Assembly (NCBI RefSeq): GCF_001182745.1
Contig: NZ_LN868938.1
Location: forward strand, 2,046,001 to 2,110,000
Length of the DNA stretch: 64,000 nt
DNA from: Nocardia farcinica
GTDB taxonomy: Bacteria; Actinomycetota; Actinomycetes; Mycobacteriales; Mycobacteriaceae
Reading direction: 5' to 3'
The notes below the pieces were generated by a model. The model was not told the DNA's origin and made no database searches. It saw only the letters and a program-made list of their open reading frames with translations. Positions 727 through 31,643 of the stretch are shown here, one piece after another; the first letter of the stretch is position 1, and the number at the start of each line of letters is the position of its first letter. The position numbers were made by a program, and so were the translations under genes.

Positions 727-807
727 CGCCACCGTCGTACGCCACCTTTCCTGTCGCCCGGCGCCAAGTGCTCGTGGTGACGCCGGCCGACCCACTCGCC
801 GTCGGCG

Positions 808-1134: not shown

Positions 1135-1220
1135 GAAAGTTGCTCCTGTGATCGCTGTTCGGGAAGGACCGCGCTGCCCACGCCGGTGCGCTCTCGGCCG
1201 ACGCGAGCGCGCGGTCCCGA

Positions 1221-3927
<2,707 letters not shown>

Positions 3928-3931
<4 letters not shown>

Positions 3932-5699: not shown

Positions 5700-5743
5700 G
5701 GCAATGACTCCGATGTCTGTTGCGGGCTGTTGGGGTTGTGTAT

Positions 5744-5779
5744 GCCGGCCCGGCTGCTCGGGCTGCTGTGCGGGCCGGC
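5744..5779 (-). repeat. Intercistronic inverted repeat between coupling protein and amidohydrolase genes
   Basis: A 9-bp perfect inverted repeat (GCCGGCCCG at 5744-5752 and CGGGCCGGC at 5771-5779, 18-nt loop) sits in the 101-bp gap. It has no T-run, so it may act as an mRNA stabiliser or attenuator rather than a strong terminator. Confidence 0.5.
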
Positions 5780-5800
5780 GCCGTCACCGCCTCGTCGGCC

Positions 5801-6142
5801 TCACTGGGCGGTGAGGTCGAAACCGATGTACTCGGCCGCGTCCTCCGGACTGGCGAACAGGAGGGTCTTGTCATCGAGGTGGACCATCCGCCCGTAGTGC
5901 GTGGAACTGATCTCCTCGAAGATCGAGCCGTCGAAATCCTCGCCGAGCGCCTCGCTGAGTTCGGCATAGTCGAAATCGAGAAGCCGCCGGCCGTCGACAC
6001 GGATCATCGACGGGTATTCGGTGAGTTCCACGCCGTCCTTCGCCCCCATGACCTCCGCGACGACGCGGCCGACGGGGGTGTTCATGAGGGTGACGCCACA
6101 CATGTTCGAGAACTCGGTGGACGAACCGAATTGCATGGTCAC
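5801..6142 (-). CDS. mimD: Monooxygenase coupling (effector) protein MimD/PrmD
   Basis: This 113-residue protein matches MmoB/DmpM-type coupling proteins, which bind the hydroxylase and tune oxygen activation without any cofactor. The family look is clear: [30 protein letters not shown], and a C-terminal [28 protein letters not shown] 6142 overlaps the TGA of the small hydroxylase subunit (GTGA). ATG 6136 is an alternative start. The gene completes the four-component set. Confidence 0.92.
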
Positions 6143-7245
6143 TGATCCAACTCCTTCGGAATGTCGAGCCCGATGTCCTCGAGCAGAGACCGGAACTTCG
6201 CCTTCGCATTCGCCAGGCTGGTCGCGAAGGTGACCGCCTTGTTGCTCGGCTGCGACCAGATGGGCTGGAGGGCTCGGGCCGCTGCCAGGCTGCGCGGGAC
6301 CCAGGTCCGCAACCAGGTGCCGAACAGCTCCTTGTTCGAATCGCCGTACTCCGGGTCTCTGGTCAGCAGGCGGAACAGATTGCGGGTGTAGGCGAGATCG
6401 CGGTCGTAGTCGTATTCGCCGGTGCCGACGATGGTCGGCGTGATGTAATCGCCGTTCCCGGCGGCGACCTGCATGACGAATTCGCTCCGGAACAGCAGAC
6501 CGACCAGCTGTTCGAAGACGATGTTGGCGCCGAACAGCAGCTCACACCAGTCCGGTACCGCGGTCAAACGCTCGAGCACTTCGCGGGTGGGCTGCCATTC
6601 GGGGGCGGACTGCCACACCTGCTTGTGCAGTTGGCCGTCGAACTCCTCGGCTTCCTCGGCCAGATCCAGATTGAACAGCGCCAGATCCTGCGCGAACCGC
6701 AGCTTGTGGGCGGCGTTCACCGCAACGGCCGTGTTGATCATGTTGGTCGGACACGACCGCTGGATCGAAGTGAAGACATGGAGCGCGAGGCCGTTCTCCG
6801 CGTGCATCCAGGCGCCGAGGTTGCGGGCGAGGAACGTCAGCCAGGACGACCCCCAGGCGTCGTACACCCGCGCGCGCTTGGCGTTGACCAGACACAGTTC
6901 GACCTGATGGACGACCTTGGAGTTGTTGCGATAGATCGTCTGGTCCCACTCCTCGTTCGGATCGAGGAAGGCGTGCCAGTTGGCGGACTTCGCGGCCGTC
7001 CACTCCAGCGGATATCCGCCGGGACCGTCGCCGAAGCCATAGATCCATCCCTGGGTCAGGTGTCGCTCCGGATCCGGCTGTACGTCGACGGTCACGTCTT
7101 CGTACATGGTCGCGCGTCGTTTGGCGGGTGTGTAGTAATTGAACGTGCGGCTGCGTGAACCGGGGAATTCCAGCGCTCCCGCCTCCGAATCGGTGAATTC
7201 GATCACGGGGAAGCTGCGTTGCTTCGTCCCTGTGCGTGCCGGCAT
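6139..7245 (-). CDS. mimC: Monooxygenase hydroxylase small (beta) subunit MimC/PrmC
   Basis: The 368-residue product is the beta subunit of a soluble di-iron monooxygenase: an all-helical ferritin-like protein without metal ligands that packs against the alpha subunit. Recognisable stretches are [21 protein letters not shown], the [17 protein letters not shown] helix and [16 protein letters not shown] 7245 follows GAGAGGTAAG. The gene is 36 bp downstream of the reductase and coupled to mimD by a 4-bp overlap. Confidence 0.93.
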
Positions 7246-7281
7246 GTGGTCTTACCTCTCGTGTTGTGTGACTCGCTCCGC

Positions 7282-8325
7282 CTAATCGAAGGCGGGGCTG
7301 GTGAACTTGTCGTAGAAGATCTGATCGGGCGGCGTGCCCTCGGCATCGAGCAGTGCGAGTGCCGCGTCGACCATCGGCGGCGGCCCGCAAAGGTAGACTT
7401 CGGATTTCGCGATGTCCGGTTCGAGCCTGCCGACGACGTCGGTGACATTGCCCGGCTCCACGGAGAACGCACCGGTCAGGTCGTGTTCTGCCGATTCGGA
7501 CAGGCATGCGACGAAGTGGAAGTCCGCCAGACGTTCTCCCCGTTCGAGTATTTCTTCCAGGTAGAACAGGTCGCCGGCCGTCCGCGCACCGTAATAGAAA
7601 TGCACCGGCCTGGTGTTGCCTGTTTCGCTCATATGCCGAAGCAACGAGAGAATGGGAGCCATACCCGCACCGCCGCCGATGCAGACGATGGGCAGTATGT
7701 GGCCTTCCTTGAGTGTGAACGACCCGTAGGGGCCGGTGAGCTCGATTTCGTCACCGATCGAGAGGTCGTTCTCGAGCAACTCCGCGAACTTGCCTCCCGG
7801 GTACTTCTTGATCAGGAACTCCAGCCGGTCCGGCGTCGTCTGCGTGCTGGCCATGGAGAAGGAACGGTGTTCGTCGGTCCCCGGGATGGTCAGGTCGGCG
7901 TACTGACCCGGTTTGTACTCGAAGGTGGCGGGTTCGATCGGCTGTAGACGGAGCGAGACGATGTCTCTGGTCAGCGGTGTCAGCGCGGTGACCCGGGTGC
8001 GGACATCCTGGATGGGGATGCCACCCAGAAGTTCGTCTTCGTCGAAGTTGAGCAGTTCGACGGTGCAGTCACTGTAGGCCGTGGAGCGGCACAGCAGGAC
8101 GTACCCCTCGTCGACCTCGGCCTCGTTGCACGCGAACGTCGAGTAGTTCTCCATCTGGATCTCGCCGTCGAGCACATACGATTTGCACGCCGAGCACCGT
8201 CCCTCACGGCAGCCGTGCATGAGATGAATGCCCTGCCGGAAAGCAGCGTCGAGAATGTACTCGTCCTCCCCGACCTCCATCTCGATATCGACGGGATCGA
8301 AGGTGATGCGGTGCTTGTCGGACAC
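7282..8325 (-). CDS. mimB: Monooxygenase NADH reductase component MimB/PrmB
   Basis: The 347-residue reductase moves electrons from NADH to the hydroxylase. Residues 1-95 form a plant-type [2Fe-2S] ferredoxin domain with the CREGRCSACKS cysteine loop and a fourth Cys in YVLLCRS. The FAD domain follows with RSFSMAS, then the NAD domain with GGGAGMAPILSLL and YLCGPPPMVDA. GTG 8325 is chosen because AGGAGA lies 7 bases upstream and the ferredoxin domain begins at once. It lies 68 bp after the large subunit gene, across a strong hairpin. Confidence 0.94.
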   Translation of the reverse strand: MSDKHRITFDPVDIEMEVGEDEYILDAAFRQGIHLMHGCREGRCSACKSYVLDGEIQMENYSTFACNEAEVDEGYVLLCRSTAYSDCTVELLNFDEDELLGGIPIQDVRTRVTALTPLTRDIVSLRLQPIEPATFEYKPGQYADLTIPGTDEHRSFSMASTQTTPDRLEFLIKKYPGGKFAELLENDLSIGDEIELTGPYGSFTLKEGHILPIVCIGGGAGMAPILSLLRHMSETGNTRPVHFYYGARTAGDLFYLEEILERGERLADFHFVACLSESAEHDLTGAFSVEPGNVTDVVGRLEPDIAKSEVYLCGPPPMVDAALALLDAEGTPPDQIFYDKFTSPAFD

Positions 8326-8356
8326 GAAAGTTCTCCTGAAATAGGGTTTTCGGCAC

Positions 8357-8387
8357 CTCGATGGGTGGCGTGGCGCCACCCATCGAG
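8357..8387 (-). repeat. Strong stem-loop between large hydroxylase and reductase genes
   Basis: Perfect 14-bp arms (CTCGATGGGTGGCG at 8357-8370 and its complement at 8374-8387) enclose a 3-nt loop. The stem begins 6 bases after the mimA stop and ends 31 bases before the mimB start. There is no T-run. The site suits 3' protection of the mimA message or partial attenuation, giving more hydroxylase than reductase. That role is inference. Confidence 0.65.
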
Positions 8388-8393
8388 TCGGAC

Positions 8394-10025
8394 TCACGCC
8401 GGTACCGCGCCTGCGCGGTATGCGGCGACGTGCGCCTCGCGTTCGCTGTCCGACATCTCGTTCAGGAGCACGTTCGGGCTCTGGAACGTGTTGCCCCGCA
8501 CGTCGTCGAGGGTCCACAGCTTCTTCGGGTCGTCCAGATCCAGGTGCGGCTGGCCGACGAGGGTCTTGCCGTCGTCGCGCACGTAGCCGAGGTCCGACAC
8601 GATGTCGGCGAGGTCCTTGCCGTGATGCAGGGTCTCCCACTCGCGGAAGCCGGTGAGACGACCCATGTTCGGCGTCGGCCGGCCTTCGTACTCACCGCGG
8701 AAGGCGACCGCGTCGGTCCAGTAGCAGGTCTCCGAGCAGTACGTGCGCCACTGGCCGTCGACCTTCTCCACCACCATGTCCTCGCGAATGAGCGCGGGCA
8801 CCATGCAGGTCCAACACCGGTGCGGGTACTGGTATCCGACCTCCTCGAAGGCGATCGGCTTGTTGCGACCGGGGTAGGCGAGGCGGTTGTAGTCTTCCCA
8901 CCACTTGCCGTACTTCGAGTACCAACCCGGGTACTTGTGCTCGAACCACTCGAAGTCCTTGTCGGTCATGGCATCGATACGCCAGTAGTTGACCGGCCAG
9001 CCGGTCGCGAAGAACCGCGCCACCTCGTGCACATAGCCCTTGTCGACGATGCGCCGCCACGCCTCCTCGACGAGATCGTGCGGAATGGTCAGGCCGTACT
9101 TCTCCAGCGGAATCAGGTAGCTGCGGTAGTAGTCGTCGTAGATCCACCGCCGCCACATCTCGGCGTAGCTCTCCCTGTCCTTGCGGCGGTCCTTGGTGCC
9201 GTACTCGATGAAGGTGCCGATGGCGGCGTCGACGACACAGTGGTTGTTCCACCACGCGTACCGCAGATCCCGCTCCAGCAAGGGACGGTTGCGCTCGTCG
9301 GCGAGAGCCATCAGGAGGATGGAATAGCCGTTGGAGATGTGCCTGGACTCGTCGGACTGGACCGAATGGAAGACCGTGGGGAGCAGGTAGTCACCGTTGG
9401 CCGCGGCTTCGTCGGGCATCGCGACGAACAGGGTGTTGGTGAACGCGGTCTCGGCGACCACGGTGAGGTAGATGTTGGCCGCGGTGATGGCGTCGCCGGT
9501 GATGAACCCTTCCCCGAACTGGCGCCCGATCGTGCCGGCGTAATTGTTCGCGAACGCCTTCTCCGTGATATCGAACCCGGCCGGGTCGATGTAGTTCGTC
9601 ATGTACAACTTCTTGAGGTTCATCTGGATCGTCGAATGACGGACCTCATCGATCATCTGCACCGCGAGCCCGTTGTGGATCTCGGGATTGGGCACCGCGT
9701 CGATGGCCATCGGCATGGCCCTGGCCGCCGAGATCTCGGGGAACGGAATGATCGACAGGAACAGCTTCTGCCATTCCAGCCAGCGCTGCTGGACCTGCCG
9801 GAACATGTTTCCGCGGATGGCCCCGTCCATCGCGCCGTAGACGCGATTGTCCTTTTCCTCCTCCATGGGGAAGTAGGAGCGCATGATCTGCTTGAGCGGG
9901 TCCTTCTTCGGCGCCTTCTCGAAGGTGTAGTCGGTGCCGAAACGAGTGGCCGGAGTCGCGAAGGTCGGCTCCCACGACAATTCGGTGATCTTCGCATGCG
10001 CCTTCGTCAGGCTTTGCCTACTCAA
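8394..10025 (-). CDS. mimA: Monooxygenase hydroxylase large (alpha) subunit, di-iron, MimA/PrmA
   Basis: The 543-residue protein is the catalytic subunit of a propane/phenol-type soluble di-iron monooxygenase. The di-iron ligands can be read: E97 in PFPEIS, E127 and H130 in DEVRH, E192 in AETAF, and E226 and H229 in SDESRH. It hydroxylates small hydrocarbons or phenols using O2 and electrons from MimB. The start is TTG 10025, with an exact AGGAGG 6 bases upstream. It is the first gene of the operon and is divergent from the regulator. Family placement (group 5/6 di-iron monooxygenase, closest to mim/prm) is firm; the natural substrate is not shown by the sequence. Confidence 0.95.
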
Positions 10026-10114
10026 TGTTCGCCTCCTGGGCTGACGGTCGGCGGGGTGTGCCGACTTGTCGGGACGTTGCCTGGTCCATTGGAGGGGCTG
10101 AGTGGCCCGGCGAG

Positions 10115-10131
10115 CGTCTCAGAATGAGACG
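10115..10131. promoter_or_regulatory. Operator-like palindrome, copy 1 (mimA-proximal)
   Basis: CGTCTCA-GAA-TGAGACG is a perfect 7-3-7 inverted repeat, about 90 bp upstream of the mimA start. Copy 2 lies 79 bp away with the same arms. The match continues rightwards for both copies as TGAGACGTG-N-GTCACAC. It is the obvious candidate binding site for the divergent regulator. Confidence 0.8.
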
Positions 10132-10193
10132 TGGGTCACACGCGAGCCCCGACCGCGCGCCGCAGCGACACGGCCGGCCCCCTCGAGGCCCAC

Positions 10194-10210
10194 CGTCTCA
10201 AATTGAGACG
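10194..10210. promoter_or_regulatory. Operator-like palindrome, copy 2 (regulator-proximal)
   Basis: CGTCTCA-AAT-TGAGACG is a perfect 7-3-7 inverted repeat with the same arms as copy 1 and only a different spacer. Two remote matching sites upstream of the promoter resemble the upstream activating sites of enhancer-type regulators. Confidence 0.8.
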
Positions 10211-10214
10211 TGCG

Positions 10215-10240
10215 TCACACAGACGCGCGCTACTGTGTGA
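10215..10240. promoter_or_regulatory. Third dyad just upstream of the regulator gene
   Basis: TCACACAG (10215-10222) and CTGTGTGA (10233-10240) form perfect 8-bp arms around a 10-bp spacer. The dyad begins 4 bp after palindrome copy 2 and ends 26 bp before the regulator start, a position suited to control of the regulator's own promoter. The binding protein is unknown. Confidence 0.5.
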
Positions 10241-10266
10241 TCGCCGATGGTGTGTGAGGTGGAGCG

Positions 10267-12027
10267 ATGGCGCGCAAAAACGACCCCGGCCCGCAACTTC
10301 TCCGGGCACGTGACCGGTTTCTGAGTTCGGGCCTGGTCGACGAGAACCTGATCTCCGGCACCGTCCGGGACTCCTGGCGACGCTGTCGAGACCTGCGCGT
10401 CCATCCGGACCGGGTAGATCTGCCCTTCGTGCGTGAGCCGGACCTCGATTCCCCTCTGGTCACCGCGGCGGCACCGGTCATCCATCAGTTGGCCGACGTG
10501 CTCGCGAACCAAGCGGTGAGCGTCATCCTCACCTCGGCGGACGGCGTCGTCCTCGATCGCGTGGCCGCCGACCGGGCGATCCGCGACACCCTCGATTCGG
10601 TGCAGCTGGCCAGCGGCTACAGCTACGCCGAAAAGTTCGTCGGAACCAATGGCATCGGCACGGCAGCCGAGACCGGGCGGCCCACCTTCATCCGCGGCGG
10701 CGAACACTATCTCGGCGCGCTGGATCGTCTGGCGTGCGCGGGCACTCCGATCCGTGACCCGCTTTCCGGGCGAGTGGTGGGCATCCTCGACCTCACCTGC
10801 TGGGCCCACCAGGCCGATCAGCTGCTGGTGGCGTTGACACAGACCGCGGGCGCACAAATCGAGGAGCGCCTGCGTGCCCAAGCCACCGAAACCGAGGCGG
10901 CGTTGCTCGACAGCTACCTGAGGCAGTGCCGTCGCTACCCTGCCGGCGTCCTCGGCGTCGGCGCCGACATCATCCTGATGAACCGTTATCTCCGCCAGGC
11001 GTTGAACCCGCTCGACCAGCATGCCCTTCTCGAACACGCGGGCGACCTCCAGCGCTCCCGCGCGACAGGCACCGTCACGGTACTTCCGAGCGGCCAGTAC
11101 GCGAAACTCACTGTCGCACAGCGGATCGATCTGCGTGGTGACGCCACCGACGTGGTCTTCCATGTCGCGTTGACCGACAGTGCCGCAGCGAACACGGCGC
11201 TGCTGCCGAGGTCGCCCATCGTGCCCGGTCTCGCGGGCAGCAGTAGTTCGTGGCGGCGCAGTTGTCAGCAGGTGGAACGTTGTTGTGCTGACCGCAACTG
11301 GGTGGTCGTCGACGGCGAACCGGGTTCGGGGCGCGCCAAACTGGCCGAGATGGTCGCCCGTCACGTCCGTCCGGCGAGGTCGGTCCGGGTGTTCCGGCTC
11401 ACTCGCAACATCGACGCCGACGAGTTGTCCGCCGACCTCGAGGCCGAAACCGCCAAGGAGGACTTCGACGTCGTTCTCGCCGACATGGACCAGCTGCCCG
11501 CCGAACTCGTCGAGCCCGTCTCGACCATCCTGCAGCGGTGCGCGGGCCGGGGTTGGGTGGCAGCCACGATCTGCTCGACCGAGCCGTCACCGGAAGTGGA
11601 ATCCCAACTACTACCGCTGTTCATGCACACTGTTCCGGTCCCGGCCCTGCGCCACCGCATCGAGGATCTCGACGAGCTGGTGCCCCACCTGCTGCGCGAG
11701 CTCACCAAGGGCGCCGACGTGCGCTTGTCGCCGGCAGCTCACCGGCAGCTGACGAAACTACCGTGGCCGGGGAATGTCGCCCAGCTCCGCCGCGTTCTGT
11801 CGGACACGCTCTCTCGGCAACGTTTCGGCACCATCACTCCCGACGTGTTGCCGCCGGAGTGCCACGCGCTCACGCGCCGGATGCTCACACCGATCGAAGC
11901 ACTCGAACGCGACGCCATTGTCCGTAGCCTCCTCGACCACCGGGGGGACAAGCAAGCGGCAGCAGCCGATCTCGGCATCTCCCGAGCAACGATGTACCGC
12001 AAGATCAGGCAATTCGGCATCACCTAG
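10267..12027 (+). CDS. mimR: MimR/AcoR-like activator with GAF, degenerate AAA+ and Fis HTH domains
   Basis: The 586-residue protein is the likely activator of the divergent oxygenase operon. Residues 70-205 form a GAF-like sensor (KFVGTNGIGTA). Residues 330-535 are a decayed sigma-54-activator AAA+ module: the Walker A site reads GEPGSGRAK (350-358), with Arg356 where the essential Lys should be. The GAFTGA loop is missing and the Walker B region is DVVLADMDQL. LRHRIEDL and PWPGNVAQLR are still recognisable. Residues 543-586 form a Fis-type HTH (AAAADLGISRATMYRKIRQFGI). Mycolata lack sigma-54, so it probably activates sigma-70-type promoters. ATG 10267 follows GGAG. Confidence 0.9.
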   Translation: MARKNDPGPQLLRARDRFLSSGLVDENLISGTVRDSWRRCRDLRVHPDRVDLPFVREPDLDSPLVTAAAPVIHQLADVLANQAVSVILTSADGVVLDRVAADRAIRDTLDSVQLASGYSYAEKFVGTNGIGTAAETGRPTFIRGGEHYLGALDRLACAGTPIRDPLSGRVVGILDLTCWAHQADQLLVALTQTAGAQIEERLRAQATETEAALLDSYLRQCRRYPAGVLGVGADIILMNRYLRQALNPLDQHALLEHAGDLQRSRATGTVTVLPSGQYAKLTVAQRIDLRGDATDVVFHVALTDSAAANTALLPRSPIVPGLAGSSSSWRRSCQQVERCCADRNWVVVDGEPGSGRAKLAEMVARHVRPARSVRVFRLTRNIDADELSADLEAETAKEDFDVVLADMDQLPAELVEPVSTILQRCAGRGWVAATICSTEPSPEVESQLLPLFMHTVPVPALRHRIEDLDELVPHLLRELTKGADVRLSPAAHRQLTKLPWPGNVAQLRRVLSDTLSRQRFGTITPDVLPPECHALTRRMLTPIEALERDAIVRSLLDHRGDKQAAAADLGISRATMYRKIRQFGIT

Positions 12028-12317
12028 CGCGCCCGGGGGACCAGCCGAGCCGCGAACGATTGGCGTCGCCGCGAGTGCTCGGCCCGCACGAATCTTGCCG
12101 GGCGCGCCGACCACCGCCACCGGACGATCCGCTCCGCGTCGATGCCCGATCGACTCATCGGTTCGGGAGACCGGCAGCGCACACGCCGGCGGACCAGGCA
12201 GATCGAGCACCCGTTCACACCCGCTGCCCAGGCCTCGACTCTCCCCGACGCGGCTGAACCGATCATCCGCACCCGATGACGGTCCCCGACGCGATGGCAG
12301 TGTGCCCCGACACGACC
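12028..12317. other. Intergenic region between convergent genes
   Basis: About 290 bp between the ends of the MimR-like gene and the double AsnC regulator. No credible gene, RNA or strong terminator hairpin was seen. Confidence 0.5.
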
Positions 12318-13367
12318 TCACCCGGTGGCCGGGCGACTGGTGGTCAACAGTTCCAACGGATGAAACCCCGTGCACCGCCCCGCACGGTCGAGCAGCGAAC
12401 CCAGCCGCTTGGGGGTTTCCAGCGTGATGCTGCGGTCGGCGATGACGAGGCCGGGTACCTGCGATTCGAGTTCGTGTTCGAGGCGCGACAATTCGCTGAT
12501 CTGCCGCAGCCATGCGGTCATCAGGACGTTGGCGGTTCCGGTGACCTCGCAGCACACGCGGATCTGGGGGAACGCGTCGAGCGCGTCGACGAGGGTGCCG
12601 AGGGTGCGGGGGATGGCGCGGGCCCAGATGTTGGCGGTGACCGGCCAGCCGCCGAGGACGTGCGCGACTTCGCAGCGGATGGAGAGGATGCGCTCGGCGA
12701 CCAGGTAGGTCAGGCGACGCCGGACGGCCGCCGCGCTGATGCCGCAGACGTCGGCGAGTTCGACCGCCGAGCGGCGGCCGTCGGCGGCGAGGGCGGCGAT
12801 CAATGCCAGGTCCACCGCGTCCGGTTGATGGACCAGGGGGCGCGGCGGCGGGCGGTAACGGGACAGGGTGGATTCCTCGCCGACGTCGAGAGCGCGCACC
12901 CGCCAGCGTTCGCTCTCCCCGAACACCTGCATCACCACGCGGGTCCGGGTGTGGGCGACCATGGGCGACCCGGACAGCTGCTGCACCCAGTCGCCGAGGC
13001 TGTCGAGATCGAAGGTCATGACGGTGAGGAGCAGGTCCCCGTCGCCGGCGGTGCGCTGGATGGTCGCGACCTTGCCGTCCCGGGAGAGTTCCCGCATCAG
13101 ATCCGGGCCGCGCTGCGCCACCTGGACCTCGACGAAGGCCGCGCATCGCGTGTTGAGGTAGGCCGGGCCGGGGTAGGTGACGATCCACGCGAGACCGCTG
13201 TCCACCAGCCGATCCCAGCGGCGGGCGGCGGTGGGCGCGCTGACGCCCGCGACGTCGCCGACAGCGCCCCACGGCGCGCGCGGTGCGGACTGGAGCGCGT
13301 GCACGATCCGGAAATCGACGTCGTCCGGAACGTAAGAATCTTTCACCGGGCGGCCCTCTGTCTGCAT
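12318..13367 (-). CDS. Double Lrp/AsnC-type transcriptional regulator
   Basis: The 349-residue protein contains two AsnC-type units in tandem. HTH 1 (residues about 15-62, DVAGVSAPTAARRWDRLVDSG) is followed by a RAM-like effector domain; HTH 2 (about 185-235, DVCGISAAAVRRRLTYLV) is followed by a second one. Usual Lrp proteins have 140-170 residues, so this is a fused dimer. ATG 13367 has a poor ribosome site; GTG 13346, 7 bases after AGAGGG, may be the true start. It is divergent from the opine-dehydrogenase-like operon across about 100 bp and probably controls it in response to an amino-acid-like ligand. Confidence 0.87.
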   Translation of the reverse strand: MQTEGRPVKDSYVPDDVDFRIVHALQSAPRAPWGAVGDVAGVSAPTAARRWDRLVDSGLAWIVTYPGPAYLNTRCAAFVEVQVAQRGPDLMRELSRDGKVATIQRTAGDGDLLLTVMTFDLDSLGDWVQQLSGSPMVAHTRTRVVMQVFGESERWRVRALDVGEESTLSRYRPPPRPLVHQPDAVDLALIAALAADGRRSAVELADVCGISAAAVRRRLTYLVAERILSIRCEVAHVLGGWPVTANIWARAIPRTLGTLVDALDAFPQIRVCCEVTGTANVLMTAWLRQISELSRLEHELESQVPGLVIADRSITLETPKRLGSLLDRAGRCTGFHPLELLTTSRPATG

Positions 13368-13466
13368 TTCTCAACACTGCCAGGCAAATTCGGCGAGCGC
13401 ATCTTAACGTTCGCTTTCACATCTCGGCGGCATTCCCCCGGGCCGTCGATCGAGGAGGTAATCGGA

Positions 13467-14567
13467 ATGAGAATCACGGTCATCGGCGGCGGTCACGGCG
13501 CATATGCGGCAGTGGCCGACATGAGCGCGAAAGGCCATGAGGTCGTCTGGTGGCGGCGGGATCACAGCGCTTTCGCACCGCTGCTCGACGCGGGCGGAAT
13601 TCGCGTCGACGACCACCGCGGGCATCGCGTGCTGCTGATCGGTGCGGCGGGTGGCATCACGGTCGAACCCGATCTCGGTCGCGCGGTGGCCGGGGCGGCG
13701 GTCGTGCTCGTGCCGATCCCCGCCTTCTCCCACCCGGACCTCGCCGAGCGGATCGCGCCGCACCTGACCGACGGCCAGGTGGTGTATTTGCCGCCGGGCA
13801 GCTTCGGTTCGGTGATCTTCGCGCGGGCGGTGGCCGCCGCCGGTAACCCGGCCAAGGTCGCCTTCGCCGAGACCGGCACCCTCCCCTACCTGGCCCGAAA
13901 GCACGGCGACGACCGGGTGGTGGTGAGCGGCTATGCCACCCGGCTGCCCACCGGGGTGCTGCCCGCCCACGACAGCGAGCGCGCGCTGGCGGTGCTGGCG
14001 GAGATCTATCCGGTCGAGCCGGTCGAGGACGCGCTGAGCGGGGCGTTGATGAACGCGGGCCCGATCATCCACCCGCCGTTGATCCTCATGAACGCCGGCC
14101 CGTTGCAGCACTTCGAGGCCTGGGACATCCACAACGAGGGCACCCAGGACGCCATCCGCCGCGTCACCACGGCCCTCGACGCCGAACGGATCGCCATCCG
14201 CACCGCGCTGGGATACGCCGCGCCGCATTTCCCGCTCGCCGACCACTACACCGCCGACGGCGACGAATGGATGTACGGCAACGCCGCGCACGAGAAGCTG
14301 ACCGACAGCGGCGACTGGCGCGAGCACATCGACCTGCACACCCACCGGTACATGACCGAGGATGTCGAGATCGGGCTCGCGCTGCTCACCTCGGTGGGCC
14401 GCTGGGCGGGGGTGCCGACGCCGGTGGCGAGCGGCCTCCTCGCCGTCGCGGGCGCGATCACCGGCCGGTCCGCCGACAGCGGCGGCCGCACACTGGCCGC
14501 CCTCGGCCTGGACGGATTGGACCGCGCGGGAATGACAGAGCTACTGCACGACGGGTTCTCGCGGTGA
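13467..14567 (+). CDS. NAD/NADP octopine/nopaline dehydrogenase family protein
   Basis: The 366-residue protein begins with a Rossmann fold (MRITVIGGGHGAYAAVADM) and continues with the opine dehydrogenase helical domain. The hallmark is MNAGPIIHPPLILMNAG near residue 195-212, with the catalytic-type His of the family, and HFEAWD. Family members reductively couple or oxidatively split N-(carboxyalkyl) amino acids. The GAGGAGG ribosome site ends 8 bases before ATG 13467. The stop overlaps the next start by 4 bp (GTGA). With its partners this suggests uptake and breakdown of an opine-like or hydroxy-amino compound. The substrate is unknown. Confidence 0.88.
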   Translation: MRITVIGGGHGAYAAVADMSAKGHEVVWWRRDHSAFAPLLDAGGIRVDDHRGHRVLLIGAAGGITVEPDLGRAVAGAAVVLVPIPAFSHPDLAERIAPHLTDGQVVYLPPGSFGSVIFARAVAAAGNPAKVAFAETGTLPYLARKHGDDRVVVSGYATRLPTGVLPAHDSERALAVLAEIYPVEPVEDALSGALMNAGPIIHPPLILMNAGPLQHFEAWDIHNEGTQDAIRRVTTALDAERIAIRTALGYAAPHFPLADHYTADGDEWMYGNAAHEKLTDSGDWREHIDLHTHRYMTEDVEIGLALLTSVGRWAGVPTPVASGLLAVAGAITGRSADSGGRTLAALGLDGLDRAGMTELLHDGFSR

Positions 14568-15607
14568 CGGGCGTGGTGGCGGTCGTCGGCGCCGGCCGCA
14601 TGGGGCAGGGTATCGCGGCGGCGCTCGGGTTCGGGAAGGTCGAGGTGATCGTGGTCGACCTGCGGGATCGCGGCGACGCCGGCGAGGCGTATCGCGCGGC
14701 GGCCCGGGCCGAGATCCGGTCGTCGCTGGCGCGGAAGGTGCGGCTCGGGCTGCTCGCCGACGCCGATCTGCCGGAGGTGCTCGACCGGATCCGGGTGGTG
14801 AGCCGGGACGCCGCGGCCGACGCGATGGCGCAGGCACGGCTCGTCTTCGAGGCGGTGCCCGAGGTCCTCGCGGTCAAACGCGCGGCCCTGTCATGGATCG
14901 AATCGGTGGTCGGCCCGGACACGCCCATCGCCTCGACCACCTCGAGTTTCCTCGTGAGTCGCCTCGCCGAATTCGTCGCGCGGCCGGACCGGCTGCTCAA
15001 CGCGCATTGGCTCAACCCCGCCGACCTGATGCCGCTGGTGGAGGTGAGCCCGAGCGCCGCGACCACACCGGAGGTGGTCGAGGCGACCTGCGAGCTGCTG
15101 TCGGCCGTCGGCAAGACACCGGTGGTCTGCGCCGCATCGCCGGGCTACATCGTGCCGCGACTCCAGGTGCTGGTGATGAACGAAGCCGTCCGGATGGTCG
15201 AGGAGGGCGTGGCCGATGCCGCCGAGATCGACCGGGCCGTGCGGATCGGATTCGGGTCCCGATTCGCTGTGCTCGGCCTGCTCGAGTTCATCGATTGGGG
15301 CGGCTGCGACACCCTGTTCCACGCCTCCACCTATCTGCGCGACGAACTCGGTGAGCGTTTCGCCCCCGCACCCCTGGTCGAACGGTCGATGGCCGACCGC
15401 CGTCCCGGCACCGCCGACGGCGGCGGCTTCTACGACATCGCGCCGGCCGCGCGCGACGACTACCGGACCCGCCGCATCGCCGACTTCGCGCAGGTCCTCG
15501 ATGCGACCGGCCAACTACACAGGTACGACGACCTTCCGCGGCGCAACGGCCGAGCCGTCGCGGAGGTGCTCTCGGCGCGCCCCGCGGGCGGGTCGCAGGA
15601 CAGATGA
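14564..15607 (+). CDS. 3-hydroxyacyl-CoA dehydrogenase family oxidoreductase
   Basis: The 347-residue protein starts at GTG 14564 inside the previous stop. It has an N-terminal Rossmann motif (VAVVGAGRMGQGIAAAL) and the family signature region NAHWLNPADLMPLVEVSPS, then CAASPGYIVPRLQVLVMNEA and a C-terminal helical domain. The substrate-pocket pattern resembles the L-carnitine/L-gulonate 3-dehydrogenase branch as much as fatty acyl-CoA enzymes, since it is a single short protein outside a beta-oxidation operon. It would oxidise a 3-hydroxy acid to the 3-keto form with NAD. Exact substrate unknown. Confidence 0.87.
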   Translation: MTGVVAVVGAGRMGQGIAAALGFGKVEVIVVDLRDRGDAGEAYRAAARAEIRSSLARKVRLGLLADADLPEVLDRIRVVSRDAAADAMAQARLVFEAVPEVLAVKRAALSWIESVVGPDTPIASTTSSFLVSRLAEFVARPDRLLNAHWLNPADLMPLVEVSPSAATTPEVVEATCELLSAVGKTPVVCAASPGYIVPRLQVLVMNEAVRMVEEGVADAAEIDRAVRIGFGSRFAVLGLLEFIDWGGCDTLFHASTYLRDELGERFAPAPLVERSMADRRPGTADGGGFYDIAPAARDDYRTRRIADFAQVLDATGQLHRYDDLPRRNGRAVAEVLSARPAGGSQDR

Positions 15608-15617
15608 GGAGACGGCT

Positions 15618-27678: not shown

Positions 27679-27833
27679 CCGCCTGCGGCCTCCTCGAACT
27701 CGGTGCGGTCGGGCGATACCGGCCCCCGTCCTGTTTACTACCGCACCAGTACGCGCGCCGGGCAGGGTGGTGCTCATTCAGCGGGAGCCGTCCGGTACCG
27801 GCGAGCCCGCGGTGGACTCGCCGGTCACGAACC

Positions 27834-28646
27834 TCAGTGCACCCCGGCCAGCGCCTGGATCGGGGTGGTGGCCACGGCCGTCGGGTAGAGGACGTGGACG
27901 AAACCGCGGTCACGGTCGTTGATGTCGAGCCCGCCCGGGACCGGTCGGCCGTCGCGCATGATCGAGCCCGGGAGCTGGTAGCACATGATCGACTGGGTGT
28001 CGGTGGGGGTGGTGATCAGGGCCACCTCCTCCAGCGGTGTCAGCACCTGGGCGCGGGTGGTGGCCTCCGACCAGCCGACGCGGTCGCGGAAGTAGCGGAT
28101 GGCCTTGGCCGGGTCGATGCGGTGCACGACGTCGCGGCGCAGGTGTTCGTGCGGGAAACCGAGAGTGTGGCCGGTTTCGTGGCGGACGACGCGGGTGTAT
28201 TCGCGTTCGTCGGTGTCGAGGCCGAACGAGTCGAGGTTCATGGTCGCCTCGTCGGCGGGAATCTGCAGCACGTCGGTGCCGAGATAGGACCAGTAGCCGT
28301 CGCCGGGGGTGCGGGCGATGCGGATCTCGGCGTCGGGGGCGGTGCTGCGGTGGAAACCGATGTTCGCCCCCGGTGACCAGGCGTTCATGTGGGCCAGGAT
28401 GCGGTCCTGGAGCGCGCGGTCGGTGGTGTCGAGGAAACGGACGCCGAGGTGGACGCCGCCGCTGCGCCAGTACTTGGTGGTCATGGCCGAGATGAACTCG
28501 CGGTTCACCGGGCGCTCGCCCACCAGTCCCGCGATGGGACGCACATAGGGCATGTTGGCGGGATTGATCTCGACGGCGAGCCGGGCGGACTCGATCTGCT
28601 TGTCGTCGGGCAGCCGCTTGGGGCTGCAGATCGCGAGGGTGTTCAT
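27834..28646 (-). CDS. Zinc metalloprotease with HExxHxxGFPHEH motif (astacin-like metzincin)
   Basis: The 270-residue protein carries H156-E157-H160 and H166 in RHETGHTLGFPHEH, the extended metzincin site, followed about 60 residues later by a SIMCYQLPG Met-turn. This places it near astacin-like M12A peptidases. No signal peptide is evident: the N-terminus is MNTLAICSPKRLPDD. It is the last gene of a three-protease set, 52 bp after the trypsin-like gene. Target unknown. Lack of an export signal suggests a cytoplasmic role or non-classical export. Confidence 0.87.
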   Translation of the reverse strand: MNTLAICSPKRLPDDKQIESARLAVEINPANMPYVRPIAGLVGERPVNREFISAMTTKYWRSGGVHLGVRFLDTTDRALQDRILAHMNAWSPGANIGFHRSTAPDAEIRIARTPGDGYWSYLGTDVLQIPADEATMNLDSFGLDTDEREYTRVVRHETGHTLGFPHEHLRRDVVHRIDPAKAIRYFRDRVGWSEATTRAQVLTPLEEVALITTPTDTQSIMCYQLPGSIMRDGRPVPGGLDINDRDRGFVHVLYPTAVATTPIQALAGVH

Positions 28647-28698
28647 GATGGTTCTCCGGGCTGGGCCGGGGCCGGGAGCACCCGGCCCCGGGGCGTCC

Positions 28699-29589
28699 TC
28701 ACGGGCGCATGTCGGTCAATCCGTGCCGGACGACGTCGACCATCCCCTTGCCGCCGGCGAACACCAGGCGGGTGGGATCGAGGCCGTCCTTCTCCTGTCC
28801 GCTGCAGACGCCGACCACGAACGGGTTGGCGGTGTGCACCCACAGCGGGCCGCCCGACCAGCCGGGCCCGAGGTCGGCGCGCAGCGCGAACTCGAGTTCC
28901 TTGCCGGGACTGTCGTTGTCGATGTCGCGGATGCCCATGTCCAGCTCCACGGCGGGGCGCTGACCGTAGCTGCCGGGGTAGCCGGAGGAGACGTAGCGCC
29001 GGTTGTAGTACTCGTCCTCGTCGCCCCAGGACTGCGAGCCCATCCAGCCCAGCGCGTTGCCGAGCGGGTTGTAGAGCTTGCAGATGACGTAGTCGTAGCC
29101 GGTGGGCACGTCGCCGCCGGGGTTGTAGCCCCAATAGCTCTGCACGAACGAGGATCCGAACGGCCGGTCGCCGTTGCGGAAGGCGGGGATGAACTCCATG
29201 CTCCAGTTGCTCGCGCCCCACGGGGCGACATGCCCCGCGGTGAGCAGCAGGTTGGGGCCGACGAGGACGCCGCTGCCGCGTTTGCCGTTGCTGTTGAACA
29301 CGATGCCCACCGTGCACATCGGATACAGCATCGGGTTGGGTTCCTCGTGCACGAGCGGCTCGTAGAAGGTCTGGCCGTCGAGCGAGAACGTCTCGGCCAC
29401 CGTGGGTTCGGCGTAGGTCGCCCACGGCGGGCAGTAGGGCGCGGTGACGGCGTCGCCGCGTGCGGGCGCCTCGGCCGGGTTCAGCGCGTGCTGTTCCTGG
29501 CCGGGAATCGCATGCACGAGTTCTTTGACGGTGGTGGGAATCTCGGTGCGCTCGAGCAGGTGGCCCGGCGCGGGATCGATGACGGTCAT
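28699..29589 (-). CDS. Trypsin-like serine protease (S1 fold)
   Basis: The 296-residue protein has the S1 triad in order: H120 in LLLTAGHVAPWG, D166 in TGYDYVICKLY and S245 in LGPGWSGGPLW. A preceding 100-residue segment (MTVIDPAPGHLLERTEIPTT onwards) is not a signal peptide and could be a pro-region. ATG 29589 follows GAGGAG by 7 bases, 20 bp after the subtilisin-like stop, so co-translation is likely. The substrate is unknown. It may be activated by, or act after, the neighbouring proteases. Confidence 0.88.
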   Translation of the reverse strand: MTVIDPAPGHLLERTEIPTTVKELVHAIPGQEQHALNPAEAPARGDAVTAPYCPPWATYAEPTVAETFSLDGQTFYEPLVHEEPNPMLYPMCTVGIVFNSNGKRGSGVLVGPNLLLTAGHVAPWGASNWSMEFIPAFRNGDRPFGSSFVQSYWGYNPGGDVPTGYDYVICKLYNPLGNALGWMGSQSWGDEDEYYNRRYVSSGYPGSYGQRPAVELDMGIRDIDNDSPGKELEFALRADLGPGWSGGPLWVHTANPFVVGVCSGQEKDGLDPTRLVFAGGKGMVDVVRHGLTDMRP

Positions 29590-29609
29590 GGTGTGCTCCT
29601 CGGATGACA

Positions 29610-30809
29610 TCAGGACTGGGGGGCGCGGACGAGCCCCGCGCCGGTGTCGGTGGGATCGGTACCGGGGATGAGCCGGTCGGTGGTGGCCTCGCCGATCAGC
29701 TTGGCCTGCAGGACGAGCGGGGCGAGCTGACCCTGTGCGGCCAGCTTCTCCGCCCACAGCGCCGCCACCCCCGCCGCGTGCGGAGTGGCCATGCTGGTGC
29801 CGCTCATGGACTCGGTGCCGCCGCCGACGGCCGCGCTGACCACACCGACGCCGGGTGCGGAGACGGTGGCGCGCGAGTTCGAGAAGGGCGCGACGGCAAG
29901 GCCGTTCGCGGTGCGTCCCAGCGCGCCGACGGCGACGATGCCTGCCGCCGCGGCGGGCGGGGCGACGTCGATCTCGAACGGTGGCGTGCGGTCGCGGCCG
30001 CTCTCGTTACCGGTGGCCGCCACCACCATCGGCTGACCGATGCCCGCGGCCAGGAACTGCGACAGCGTCTCGAACAGCTGCACGTTGGCGGTGTAGGCGC
30101 GCAGCGCCAGCGACGTGGCCACCGGGATGGACAGCCCGCGCAGCGTGACCAGTTTCTCGACGAAGCCGGGGAAATCGATGCCGAGCGACATCGAGATCAC
30201 GTGCGCGCCGTTGTCGCGCGCCCACAGGATCGCCTCGGCGATGGTGTCGCTGCCGCCGCCACCGGGGCCGAGGACCTTGCCGATCAACGCGCGCCCGACC
30301 CCGCGCGCGACGCCGATCCGCGTGCCGTCCAGGTCGCGACCGAAAATCGTTCCGGCGCAGTGCGTTCCGTGACCGTCTTTGTCGTGGGCGGAGCCGCCGC
30401 CGGTGAAGTCCCTGGTGACCAGGTCGACGCCGGCGAAGGCGGGGTGGTCGGCGTCGATACCGGTGTCGAGCACCGCGACGGTGACACCCTGCCCGGTGAA
30501 CGGCGAGGTCGTCGCGCCGACGGCCTCGACGCCCCAGGTGGGACCCGCCGCCGCGGCGACGACACCGCCGCGCTCGGCCGGTTCGACGAGGCGCATCGGC
30601 ATCGCCGGGCCGAACCCGACGACGGTCGGATCGGCGGCGACCGACCGCAACGTCGCCGCGTCGACCTCATCGATATCGATGCGGACGTCGGCGGCGACCT
30701 CGGCGGGAAAGGCCGCGGGGCCCGCGTTCGGCTCCCGCAGCACCGCGCGGGCGGGGGCGCGCAACACGACGAGTTTCTCCCCCGCGAGGACATGTGTTGG
30801 CTCGGACAT
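29610..30809 (-). CDS. Subtilisin-like serine protease (S8) with I9-like N-terminal region
   Basis: The 399-residue protein has the full S8 set: D115 (VAVLDTGID), H147 (DGHGTHCAG), oxyanion N268 (ATGNES) and S339 (SGTSMATPHAAG). Residues 35-75 (VRIDIDEVDAATLRSVAADP) resemble an I9 inhibitor/chaperone domain that is cut off on maturation. No signal peptide precedes it. ATG 30809 heads the three-protease operon. Such I9-S8 proteins are usually exported, so the missing leader is notable. Confidence 0.9.
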   Translation of the reverse strand: MSEPTHVLAGEKLVVLRAPARAVLREPNAGPAAFPAEVAADVRIDIDEVDAATLRSVAADPTVVGFGPAMPMRLVEPAERGGVVAAAAGPTWGVEAVGATTSPFTGQGVTVAVLDTGIDADHPAFAGVDLVTRDFTGGGSAHDKDGHGTHCAGTIFGRDLDGTRIGVARGVGRALIGKVLGPGGGGSDTIAEAILWARDNGAHVISMSLGIDFPGFVEKLVTLRGLSIPVATSLALRAYTANVQLFETLSQFLAAGIGQPMVVAATGNESGRDRTPPFEIDVAPPAAAAGIVAVGALGRTANGLAVAPFSNSRATVSAPGVGVVSAAVGGGTESMSGTSMATPHAAGVAALWAEKLAAQGQLAPLVLQAKLIGEATTDRLIPGTDPTDTGAGLVRAPQS

Positions 30810-30879
30810 GGTGACTCCAGATTTCCGGGGTGGGGTGGAAGGAGGCACCAAGGCTAGGTCCGCGCGGGGCGGCGGATCG

Positions 30880-30896
30880 CGAGTAGCGACTACTCG
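30880..30896. promoter_or_regulatory. Palindrome upstream of the three-protease operon
   Basis: CGAGTAG-CGA-CTACTCG is a perfect 7-3-7 inverted repeat, 71 bp before the subtilisin-like start. On the minus strand a TAGCCT -10-like hexamer lies at 30851-30856; its -35 (weak) would sit right beside the palindrome, as expected for an activator site. Confidence 0.6.
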
Positions 30897-30980: not shown

Positions 30981-31643
30981 CTAGGGTTCCGGGGTGTCGC
31001 GTTCGTGCGCGGTCAACAGGAGATGGTCGAAGCGGGTGCGTTCCCCGACACCGCAGCCGCCGAATTCGGTGACGGCTTCGACCAGGCGGGCGGCCAGGTC
31101 GCGGAGTTTGGTGTTCGTCTCCTGGGAGCGCCAGGCGAGCACGCGGAAAGCCTGCTCGGCGCTGATGCCGTACATGAGCATGAGGGCGCCCTTGGCCTGG
31201 TCGATCACCGAGCGGGTGGCGACCAGGTCGGGCAGGGTCTCGTCGAGGACTTCCTTGCGGGCTTCGTCGAGGCGGTCGGTGAGGTCGATGTAGTAGCCGG
31301 TCGAGCCGACGACGCGGCCGTCCGCGTCGCGCATCTCGTCGCCGACGACCAGGACGTGCCGGACGCGGCCGTGTGTGTCCAGGATGCGGTGCCTGCTGCA
31401 GAACGGTTGACCGGTCGACACCGCGGCCGCGAGAATGTCGGCGACCGCATCGCGGTCCTCGGGATGCTTGTGAGCCAGCATCAGCTCGGTGGTGGGCACC
31501 ACCGAACCCGGTGCGTAGCCGTGCAACACGGCCACCTCGTCCGACCATTCCCAGCGCTGGTCCGCGAACCAGAACCGATAGCTGCCCGCCGGCCGCCACG
31601 CATCGGCGGCGGAGACCGGGGGCGTCCCGTTGCCTTCGCTCAC
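30981..31643 (-). CDS. PAS-ANTAR RNA-binding antiterminator-type regulator
   Basis: The 220-residue protein has a PAS fold (residues 20-125: FADQRWEWSDEVAVLHGYAPGS, HPEDRDAV, RVRHVLVVGDEMRDADGRVVG STGYYIDLTDR) and a C-terminal ANTAR domain (130-200: RSVIDQAKGALMLMYGISAEQAFRVLAW). ANTAR proteins bind paired hairpins in RNA and prevent termination. Start is GTG 31643. It lies upstream of the protease operon on the same strand with a 171-bp gap, so it could be its regulator, but no ANTAR target hairpin pair was identified. Confidence 0.87.
   Translation of the reverse strand: MSEGNGTPPVSAADAWRPAGSYRFWFADQRWEWSDEVAVLHGYAPGSVVPTTELMLAHKHPEDRDAVADILAAAVSTGQPFCSRHRILDTHGRVRHVLVVGDEMRDADGRVVGSTGYYIDLTDRLDEARKEVLDETLPDLVATRSVIDQAKGALMLMYGISAEQAFRVLAWRSQETNTKLRDLAARLVEAVTEFGGCGVGERTRFDHLLLTAHERDTPEP

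Follow-up and report, generated by a model that had tools for sequence, protein, structure and literature searches.

A leaderless pair of S8 and S1 proteases next to an astacin-like gene in Nocardia farcinica: a candidate protease module of conflict or stress signaling

The window analyzed here, a 64,000-nt stretch of Nocardia farcinica contig NZ_LN868938.1 (positions 2,046,001 to 2,110,000), carries consecutive genes for three predicted proteases of different catalytic classes. These genes and the elements around them lie at the following window coordinates:

27790-27832, minus strand: hairpin directly 3' of the M12 stop (z -3.1), possible transcript end
27834-28646, minus strand: M12A astacin-like metalloprotease, 270 aa, leaderless, with HETGHTLGFPHE and SIMCY
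28626-28628, minus strand: codon of Cys7, candidate cysteine switch in the motif CxP[KR]xLP (from alignment)
28666-28691, minus strand: perfect 11-bp hairpin with a 4-nt loop between the S1 stop and the M12 start, terminator-like or attenuator
28699-29589, minus strand: S1-type (trypsin/glutamyl-endopeptidase-like) serine protease, 296 aa, leaderless, H120/D166/S245
29335-29589, minus strand: residues 1-85 or so of S1, an N-terminal extension that precedes the catalytic domain and is presumed to be a prosegment
29610-30809, minus strand: S8 subtilase, 399 aa, leaderless, D115/H147/N268/S339 intact
30540-30809, minus strand: predicted S8 N-terminal prosegment (about residues 1-90) with conserved P71, L74, and P77
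30880-30896, no strand: perfect 17-bp palindrome with arms of 7 bp, lying upstream of S8 and a possible operator
30981-31643, minus strand: PAS-ANTAR regulator gene (Pfam), a neighbor with a putative link to the proteases

The gene coordinates bear out the initial annotation, which had placed S8, S1, and M12 one after another on the minus strand with gaps of 20 bp (S8/S1) and 52 bp (S1/M12), and Pfam matches and alignment conservation agree with it that the catalytic residues of all three classes are intact. GC3 across the trio is 0.91–0.93. The palindrome above the trio and the PAS-ANTAR gene close by, also claimed at the outset, are both present by coordinates and Pfam, the former 70 nt before the S8 ATG and the latter ending 171 bp upstream of S8. 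The palindrome is only mildly unexpected because 12 of 100 shuffles produced a match when up to two mismatches were allowed; among all related loci searched, the only copies found were the window's own, and in the related loci that were read, genes other than PAS-ANTAR stand upstream of the S8-S1 pair. The proposal of a single operon stood in part: the shared strand and short gaps speak for it, but a strong hairpin (dG -33 kcal/mol), beginning 7 nt past the S1 stop and ahead of the M12 ribosome-binding site, separates S1 from M12, so that one operon for all three genes is not established. A scan for T-run terminators found none. Pfam analysis of the trio and seven scanned neighbors revealed neither CHAT, sigma factor, nor nuclease genes, and no adaptor domains within the proteases; the genome's single CHAT match lies on another contig. 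PADLOC returned a generic subtilase model for the trio (9e-21) together with weak IetS and LmuA matches. Of 59 Nocardia genomes, 25 have the glyoxalase neighbor, and an empty-site comparison of 12 glyoxalase-bearing genomes found no other gene from 20–36 kb of the window alongside it, save one weak 36% match; the insertion point could not be shown because the window's other genes did not accompany the glyoxalase gene.

None of the three proteases has a hydrophobic leader at its annotated start or at any in-frame upstream start, as judged by a home-made hydropathy rule (not SignalP) in which exported control proteins score 2.27–2.63. The initial annotation had remarked on this absence, and it holds with alternative starts included; an overlooked leader was rejected, since no start codon of S8, S1, or M12 yields one. 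The accompanying statement that relatives are usually exported proved wrong for the 120 closest members of every family, nearly all of which are leaderless (leader-positive in S8 0/120, S1 2/120, and M12 4/120). As predicted from sequence, an intracellular design of the proteases is supported.

The S8 protein matches Pfam Peptidase_S8 at E 4.7e-37, and D115, H147, N268, and S339 are invariant across 42 aligned rows. Its predicted prosegment ends where mature subtilisins begin aligning, the basis on which the boundary was drawn; P77 is invariant and P71 and L74 are at least 90% conserved in the 42 rows, and all three are invariant in a 33-row set. By profile, the window S8 comes closest among solved structures to intracellular serine proteases of the Bacillus type, with 7xr8 and 7y6m as the best matches, and like the Bacillus intracellular subtilisins (ISPs) it is a subtilase without a leader. 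The locus might thus serve housekeeping intracellular proteolysis, with S8 acting in the stationary-phase turnover assigned to intracellular subtilisins (available text of PMC6220982), S1 and the astacin as accessories, and no role in conflict. Solitary leaderless S8 relatives in ordinary chromosomal settings are common and would fit: neither S1 nor M12 accompanies S8 in any of six such loci (L061 and L078–L082, L082 being one-sided), and seven Pfam-scanned neighbors of solitary S8 genes encode ordinary transport, lipase, helicase, and M23 proteins. However, the window S8 prosegment is longer than that of ISPs and shows RLVEP (family consensus KLIEP) rather than the LIPY/F motif ([LVI]-[IFLV]-P-[YFH], pattern from the available text of PMC6220982). 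The gene is also patchy: close S8 relatives (E<=1e-60) occur in 2 of 148 Nocardia genomes (at most 12 candidates scored per genome), and a close S8 was found in 6 of 396 genomes sampled across the phylum, among them the window's own (4 or fewer candidates scored per genome). The strong S8-S1 linkage and the CHAT operons described below argue further against a housekeeping role, which we consider unlikely.

A different identity for S8, as a mycosin linked to a T7SS or another exported subtilase whose leader was missed, is suggested by its top NCBIfam match, mycosin (TIGR03921). This match scores 83.1 bits where the cut-off is 278.75, S8 lacks a leader at every start, and a mycosin-like S8 found in this genome tests leader-positive; the mycosin identity is refuted on these grounds, and the probability of an exported subtilase is negligible. 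A megablast search with a stretch around the mycosin returned no match. A phage origin was likewise rejected: phage records hold no S8 relative at E<=1e-15, and three viral contigs gave only 30–34% matches.

The S1-type protein is matched by Pfam Trypsin at 2e-4 (21.7 bits versus a cut-off of 20.6) and, below threshold, by Trypsin_2 (25.8 versus 27.6). It has the His-Asp-Ser triad of glutamyl endopeptidases and V8-like S1 proteases, H120 and D166 being invariant and S245 at least 90% conserved in 41 aligned rows. The Pfam matches start at residues 92 and 105, and it is from these starts that the N-terminal extension is deduced. S1 is found at E<=1e-60 in 4 of 148 Nocardia genomes and, in searches reaching beyond Nocardia, at E<=1e-3 in 9 of 151 genomes of a family-level sample, at E<=1e-20 in 8 of 401 genomes, and at E<=1e-30 in 1 of 394 genomes of a class-level sample, the last three counts including the window's own genome; the plasmid collection held no S1 relative at E<=1e-10.

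M12A proteases are marked by HExxHxxGxxHE and an SxMxY Met-turn. Both are present in the window M12, which matches Pfam Astacin at E 1.8e-7 and for which the astacin fold was found; the signal peptide of exported M12A enzymes is absent from it by the hydropathy rule. In an alignment of 37 hand-picked rows, the three zinc-binding His residues are invariant, the catalytic Glu is at least 90% conserved, and an N-terminal Cys is kept in all 37. The strict motif CxP[KR]xLP occurs in 105, and a loose version in 111, of the 120 family members listed, making the conserved Cys7 a candidate cysteine switch on the basis of alignment. The closest structures to the M12 model include zymogens, the model's aligned range begins at residue 1, and its first ten residues have a mean pLDDT of 57. 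Myroilysin is an M12A protease with a proven cysteine switch (available text of PMC9848320), from which the window M12 differs in being leaderless, in its short CxPKxLP segment, and in belonging to a large family, mostly leaderless among the members listed. This family comprises 4915 matches at E<=1e-3, a number that is not on one scale with the fewer than 400 non-holozoan astacin sequences reported in the same text because it counts clustered predicted proteins, metagenomes included.

How these genes travel together was examined in a neighborhood scan of 143 loci, the counts being drawn from 52 of them, with home-made profiles, a simple gene caller, and Pfam applied to chosen neighbors alone. 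The initial annotation had asked whether the three families are kept together in the same order in other actinomycetes and had made its proposal depend on their being found together. The complete triple occurs in 1 of 148 sampled Nocardia genomes, the window's own, and in no other sampled genome, so that the triple fails this rule while the S8-S1 pair passes it. The pair is a real unit: S8 adjoins S1 in all six evaluable loci whose S1 is at least 60% identical (the window, L011, L012, L013, L014, and L129). Among these, L012 and L129 are near-identical, and in L013 and L014 the adjacency is kept with an S8 of just 37–40% identity and flipped gene order. Duplicates, identified from the lengths of their contigs and their positions, were counted once (L011=L130, L012=G1053/L126, L013=G1142/L127, L014=L064), and L015 was left out because its contig extends no more than roughly 350 bp to one side. 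A comparison of 24 S1 and 17 S8 listed matches adds Rhodococcus zopfii and Nocardia sp. NPDC057353, in each of which the two proteins are encoded on contigs of identical length. S1 relatives of 50–56% identity adjoin S8 in none of five cases, and tblastn with the window proteins found no S8 or M12 at the S1 loci L091, L092, L094, and L097. The best reading of this distribution is an S8-S1 module patchily spread among actinobacteria. In the open-licence literature, no title or abstract describing the S8-S1-astacin trio or this S8-S1 pair was found.

M12, in contrast with the pair, looks like a local addition. It was found in 10 of 148 Nocardia genomes; its close Nocardia relatives adjoin S8 or S1 in none of nine loci (one at a contig end), and among the six close-S1 loci it adjoins in the window alone. 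With the intervening hairpin, these counts give close to an even chance that the astacin is an unrelated neighbor, separately transcribed, and that S8 and S1 by themselves form the module, a possibility compatible with our preferred account of the pair. Against it stand the shared strand, the 52-bp gap, and M12's own ribosome-binding site, as well as the chance occurrence of perfect 11-bp hairpins (0–2 in each of five simple shuffles). The classes also recur together elsewhere: L062/L063 combine M12 and S1, and on a Bradyrhizobium plasmid M12 is in the company of caspase and trypsin genes. Nocardia genome G210, whose M12 is 72% identical, holds an isolated 29-residue S1-like stretch of 83% identity.

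Three Rhodococcus-lineage genomes share a co-linear operon of a sigma factor, a small protein, a second S8, a TPR-CHAT protease, S8, and S1, in which corresponding genes of the two lineages are 52–74% identical. The CHAT domain matches range from E 3.9e-17 to 4.9e-19, the sigma gene shows Sigma70_r2 in L129 and has homologs in L011 and L012, and the small protein gives a sub-threshold CarboxypepD_reg match. The fourth Rhodococcus-type genome whose S1 is close, L013 (R. trifolii), has no CHAT among its gene calls. S8 relatives occur in 8 records of the plasmid collection; all five regions read lie near conflict-type genes, four of them with CHAT, caspase, TIR, or trypsin close by. One plasmid region (L066) has a NACHT gene directly upstream of the S8 relative and a Trypsin_2 gene 4 kb away; in two others, L068 and L069, a DNA/RNA non-specific endonuclease is encoded, together with EAD1-trypsin in L069. 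More distant S1 genes adjoin S8 and a TIR-nSTAND1-WD40 protein in L083, are one gene away from S8 in L084, and lie near M12 and an Endonuclease_NS gene in L063. Such CHAT, caspase, TIR, and NACHT settings support the view that S8-S1 relatives reside in neighborhoods typical of conflict or stress signaling. Thus, the intracellular cascade or conflict module first proposed gains from the leaderless design and from these settings, but loses in that the triple is not a conserved unit.

Leaderless proteases might also be freed by lysis or injected into neighboring cells as antagonistic effectors that do not act in their producer, for which the proposal of protealysin as an interbacterial effector offers a precedent (available text of PMC9505478). 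Two loci are consistent with such a role: L059, where an S1 relative adjoins genes for an M4 protease and Emfourin, and L047, where an M12 relative is close to a Tle1-like phospholipase gene. Yet no small inhibitor-like gene was found after the window M12, injection-system genes were not evident on inspection of the window gene calls by eye, and a YxxxD/E motif is absent near all three C-termini, which renders antagonism improbable.

Several described systems resemble the locus in part, as far as the available text of each source goes. ECF54-type neighborhoods combine carboxypeptidase, subtilase, and CHAT domains beside an ECF sigma factor (PMC8999054), and in the Rhodococcus operon a sigma factor is likewise accompanied by two subtilases, CHAT, and a CarboxypepD_reg-like small protein. 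The window pair differs in having no adjacent sigma factor (Pfam on neighbors, gene calls) or CHAT; the available part of PMC8999054 mentions neither the S8-S1 tail nor the astacin, and the Rhodococcus sigma factor is likened to ECF54 by gene neighborhood. System 3 NucA-trypsin conflict systems contain trypsin-like and S8 peptidases in a proposed proteolytic cascade (Kaur et al. 2020, PMC7159879). The window locus shares with them a trypsin-like peptidase, and plasmid relatives L068 and L069 the nuclease, with EAD1-trypsin in L069. However, the window genome has 0 Endonuclease_NS matches (4 of 14 control genomes are positive), the EAD1 or STAND partner of a subset of these systems is absent from the trio and seven neighbors by Pfam, and an astacin is present. 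Plain NucA-trypsin membership was rejected on account of the missing NucA-type Endonuclease_NS. As in the TPR-CHAT Csx29/Csx30/CASP-sigma system (PMC10028731), a TPR-CHAT protease and a sigma factor are co-encoded, in the Rhodococcus relatives alone; on reading the stretch, no CRISPR genes were noticed, and the output here would be two or three further proteases. Nuclease-protease pairs, including canu (PMC12799240), share the immunity logic whereby a partner protease gates a latent enzyme, whereas here both partners are proteases and no MBL-type nuclease was noticed beside them.

Our preferred reading, to which we assign a probability of roughly 45%, is that S8, S1, and possibly the astacin are latent proteases acting in the cytoplasm, in a conflict or stress cascade that here lacks the CHAT trigger. 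In the Rhodococcus lineage, the S8-S1 pair would form the output end of the sigma factor/TPR-CHAT operon. A trigger may activate CHAT, the caspase-like protease, or alternatively the sigma factor; S8 would then shed its prosegment, and S8 or CHAT would cut the N-terminal extension of S1, whose freed form could cleave cell proteins in a stress or anti-invader response. In the window Nocardia, the pair would operate without an adjacent CHAT or sigma gene and under its own upstream region with the palindrome, and the putative cysteine-switch astacin past the hairpin could be freed by the serine proteases, broadening the attack. We infer each of these elements, from protease activity and latency through trigger, cleavage order, and outcome to the astacin's place in the pathway and the direction of gene gain or loss, from the gene content, catalytic residues, leader absence, S8-S1 adjacency, conflict neighborhoods of some relatives, and conserved Cys that are observed. 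It is enticing to speculate further that a protease-only cascade across catalytic classes leads from the cysteine protease TPR-CHAT through the serine protease S8 to the serine protease S1, the leaderless cysteine-switch astacin being a further, exchangeable executioner, and that its family of thousands with the CxPKxLP switch segment constitutes a cytoplasmic M12A branch, contrary to the view of bacterial astacins as few, exported, and animal-derived; we regard this extended scheme as rather unlikely.

If the cascade exists, bacterial immunity or stress signaling would rely on protease cascades of several steps that recall clotting or complement, and serine and metalloproteases would act downstream of caspase-like triggers, beyond nuclease, pore, and NAD effectors. 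The S8-S1 pair offers a compact two-protein test system, and the leaderless astacin family, as possible cytoplasmic cysteine-switch zymogens, bears on the origins of astacins.

Three intact, adjoining protease genes occupy 27834-30809(-) at spacings of 20 and 52 bp, as the initial annotation had described. The genome measures 6.46 Mb, and its closest named relatives are Nocardia. The genes, and a hairpin between two of them, are:

29610-30809(-): S8 gene, 399 aa, Pfam Peptidase_S8
28699-29589(-): S1-type gene, 296 aa, Pfam Trypsin (Trypsin_2 slightly under the cut-off)
28666-28691(-): hairpin between the S1 and M12 genes
27834-28646(-): M12 gene, astacin-like, 270 aa, Pfam Astacin

The catalytic residues assigned to them also proved correct and conserved: D115/H147/N268/S339 of S8 are invariant across 42 alignment rows, H120 and D166 of S1 are invariant and S245 is at least 90% conserved across 41 rows, and the metzincin motif of M12 is conserved across 37. 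The reported palindrome (17 bp, perfect, 70 nt ahead of the S8 start) and PAS-ANTAR gene (171 bp upstream of S8) are likewise present. Another S8 match of this genome (L145, G000:C2:1598677) contains an in-frame stop and, by eye, has a transposase-like ORF nearby.

The proteases had further been described as leaderless members of usually exported families. By a simple hydropathy-type rule (a charge-free hydrophobic 12-mer within the first 45 residues), no leader was found on S8, S1 or M12, all in-frame upstream starts included, and the rule did flag exported controls, one of which is a mycosin-like S8 from this genome. This part of the description therefore holds; the remainder is wrong for the nearest relatives, as 0 S8, 2 S1 and 4 M12 proteins were leader-positive among the nearest 120 per family, and several of these few look by eye like fragments or internal stretches. 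Because of these counts, leaderlessness is, at the level of sequence, a trait of the three families rather than a peculiarity of the window locus.

The three genes had been expected to stay together elsewhere, and across 148 Nocardia genomes they do not. M12 found matches in 10 genomes and S1 in 18 at E<=1e-3 (4 of these at E<=1e-60). For S8, where at most 12 candidates per genome were scored, 2 genomes matched at E<=1e-60. The window's own genome alone is common to the three lists. No S8 or S1 gene lies near M12 in nine Nocardia loci whose M12 is about 50% identical or more, one of which (L050) is at a contig end. As far as sampled, the triple is not a unit. One of these genomes, G210, whose M12 is 72% identical, has at another place a lone 29-residue S1-like stretch of 83% identity (L097:8808-8894), perhaps a remnant.

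Beginning 7 nt past the S1 stop is a hairpin whose 11-bp stem is perfect (dG -33.3 kcal/mol, z -2.1), one of 4 such sites in the 64-kb window, where five simple shuffles gave 0-2. A scan for T-run terminators returned no site there. The others, possible terminators, each lie at most ~130 nt past a gene end:

8358: perfect 11-bp hairpin
17054: perfect 11-bp hairpin
19099: perfect 11-bp hairpin

Because the hairpin separates the S1 stop from M12, the latter may be transcribed apart from S8-S1.

The proposed protease linkage survives for S8 and S1, but not for the triple with M12. Six loci that encode an S1 of 60% identity or more could be judged (the window, L011, L012, L013, L014 and L129), and in every one an S8 adjoins it; L012 and L129 are near-identical, and L015 was left out as too short. 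In two further genomes (R. zopfii and Nocardia sp. NPDC057353), S8 and S1 are on equally long contigs. The adjoining S8 of L013 and L014 is just 37-40% identical and the gene order is reversed; therefore the partner varies and adjacency persists. Beside S1 relatives of 50-56% identity, S8 was found in 0 of 5. On this comparison of sequences, the S8-S1 pair is a unit beyond chance, and the trio is a local arrangement.

In three Rhodococcus-lineage loci (L011, L012, L129), the pair closes a co-linear six-gene operon ordered sigma factor, small protein, second S8, TPR-CHAT protease, S8, S1. In L129 the small protein has 161 aa and gives a carboxypeptidase-regulatory match below the threshold. L012 and L129 hardly differ, and L011 shares 52-74% identity with them across the individual genes; R. 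trifolii (L013), fourth in that genus to carry a close S1, shows none of the operon's other genes. The arrangement resembles ECF54 neighbourhoods, for which PMC8999054 describes a CHAT protease and sigma factor encoded together, and its logic would be similar to that of the TPR-CHAT protein Csx29, which cleaves a sigma-factor inhibitor according to PMC10028731. Kaur et al. (PMC7159879) proposed that NucA nucleases are accompanied by proteolytic cascades in which trypsin and S8 peptidases take part. The window locus is not classed with either the NucA-trypsin or the CHAT/sigma systems, because the genome lacks that nuclease and its single CHAT match is on another contig.

The S8 query matched 8 plasmid records, and neighbourhoods were examined for 5 (the remaining three are Agrobacterium). 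CHAT, caspase, TIR or trypsin genes are close to S8 in four, from Bradyrhizobium (S8, trypsin, caspase and M12 inside ~12 kb), Sphingomonas, Agrobacterium and Sinorhizobium (CHAT, S8, a hypothetical gene, EAD1-trypsin). In the fifth, an unannotated record of Nonomuraea gerenzanensis (L066:2774-10098), a NACHT NTPase gene is directly upstream of S8, with YcaO next and Trypsin_2 ~4 kb off. The Agrobacterium stretch, a Ti plasmid region of pTiCFBP5877 (L068), carries annotations for 4 CHAT, 1 caspase and 2 TIR genes, for 2 S8 genes and for a DNA/RNA non-specific endonuclease.

Among the distant S1 loci listed, 4 of 16 are partnered by S8 or M12. One distant actinobacterial S1 lies within a LuxR-ATPase/trypsin/S1/S8 stretch (L084); in a Nocardia genome (L083:9339-15806), S1, S8 and a TIR-nSTAND1-WD40 protein are consecutive. 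Distant S1 is near M12, with Endonuclease_NS and a trypsin gene, in L063 and similarly in L062. This sister-genus locus has the look of an actinobacterial conflict locus of the NucA-trypsin type that includes a metalloprotease (domain labels from Pfam on L063, L062 or L084 members):

L062 ~7360-15616 and L063 ~459-8729: LuxR-type ATPase, trypsin-like protein, Endonuclease_NS, M12, S1, carboxypeptidase-regulatory-like gene

In a Nocardia genome (L059:6226-8951), an S1 relative adjoins M4 metalloprotease and Emfourin genes by Pfam, and a second genome (L086) is arranged alike by eye.

The most original by-product of the analysis is the leaderless, cysteine-bearing astacin family. Small proteins of 86-105 aa, alike by eye, lie just past M12 in Nocardia and Paraburkholderia (L051:7324-7641, L053:7458-7718, L070:7893-8207) and are candidate inhibitors of the leaderless astacin; those of L051 and L070 gave no Pfam match, and none is called beside the window's M12. 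Leaderless astacins also occur near a Tle1-like (DUF2235) phospholipase gene in L047 (Pfam) and L046 (by eye).

A conflict role, one of those originally suggested, meets its strongest counterpoints in the lack of any trigger gene next to S8-S1 in the window and in the solitary S8 relatives: six close ones (L061, L078-L082) have no S1 or M12 nearby, and Pfam-scanned neighbours of five are ordinary proteins. Alternatives are ordinary stationary-phase proteolysis of the intracellular subtilisin-like kind, which is rather unlikely, and release as antagonistic effectors, which is somewhat less likely still. Since both proteins carry N-terminal segments ahead of their catalytic domains (one with a conserved Pro/Leu/Pro in S8, ~85 residues in S1), the S8-S1 pair may be read as latent cytoplasmic proteases, and the window's pair may work like the NucA-trypsin or CHAT/sigma systems through another trigger, or be a reduced remnant.
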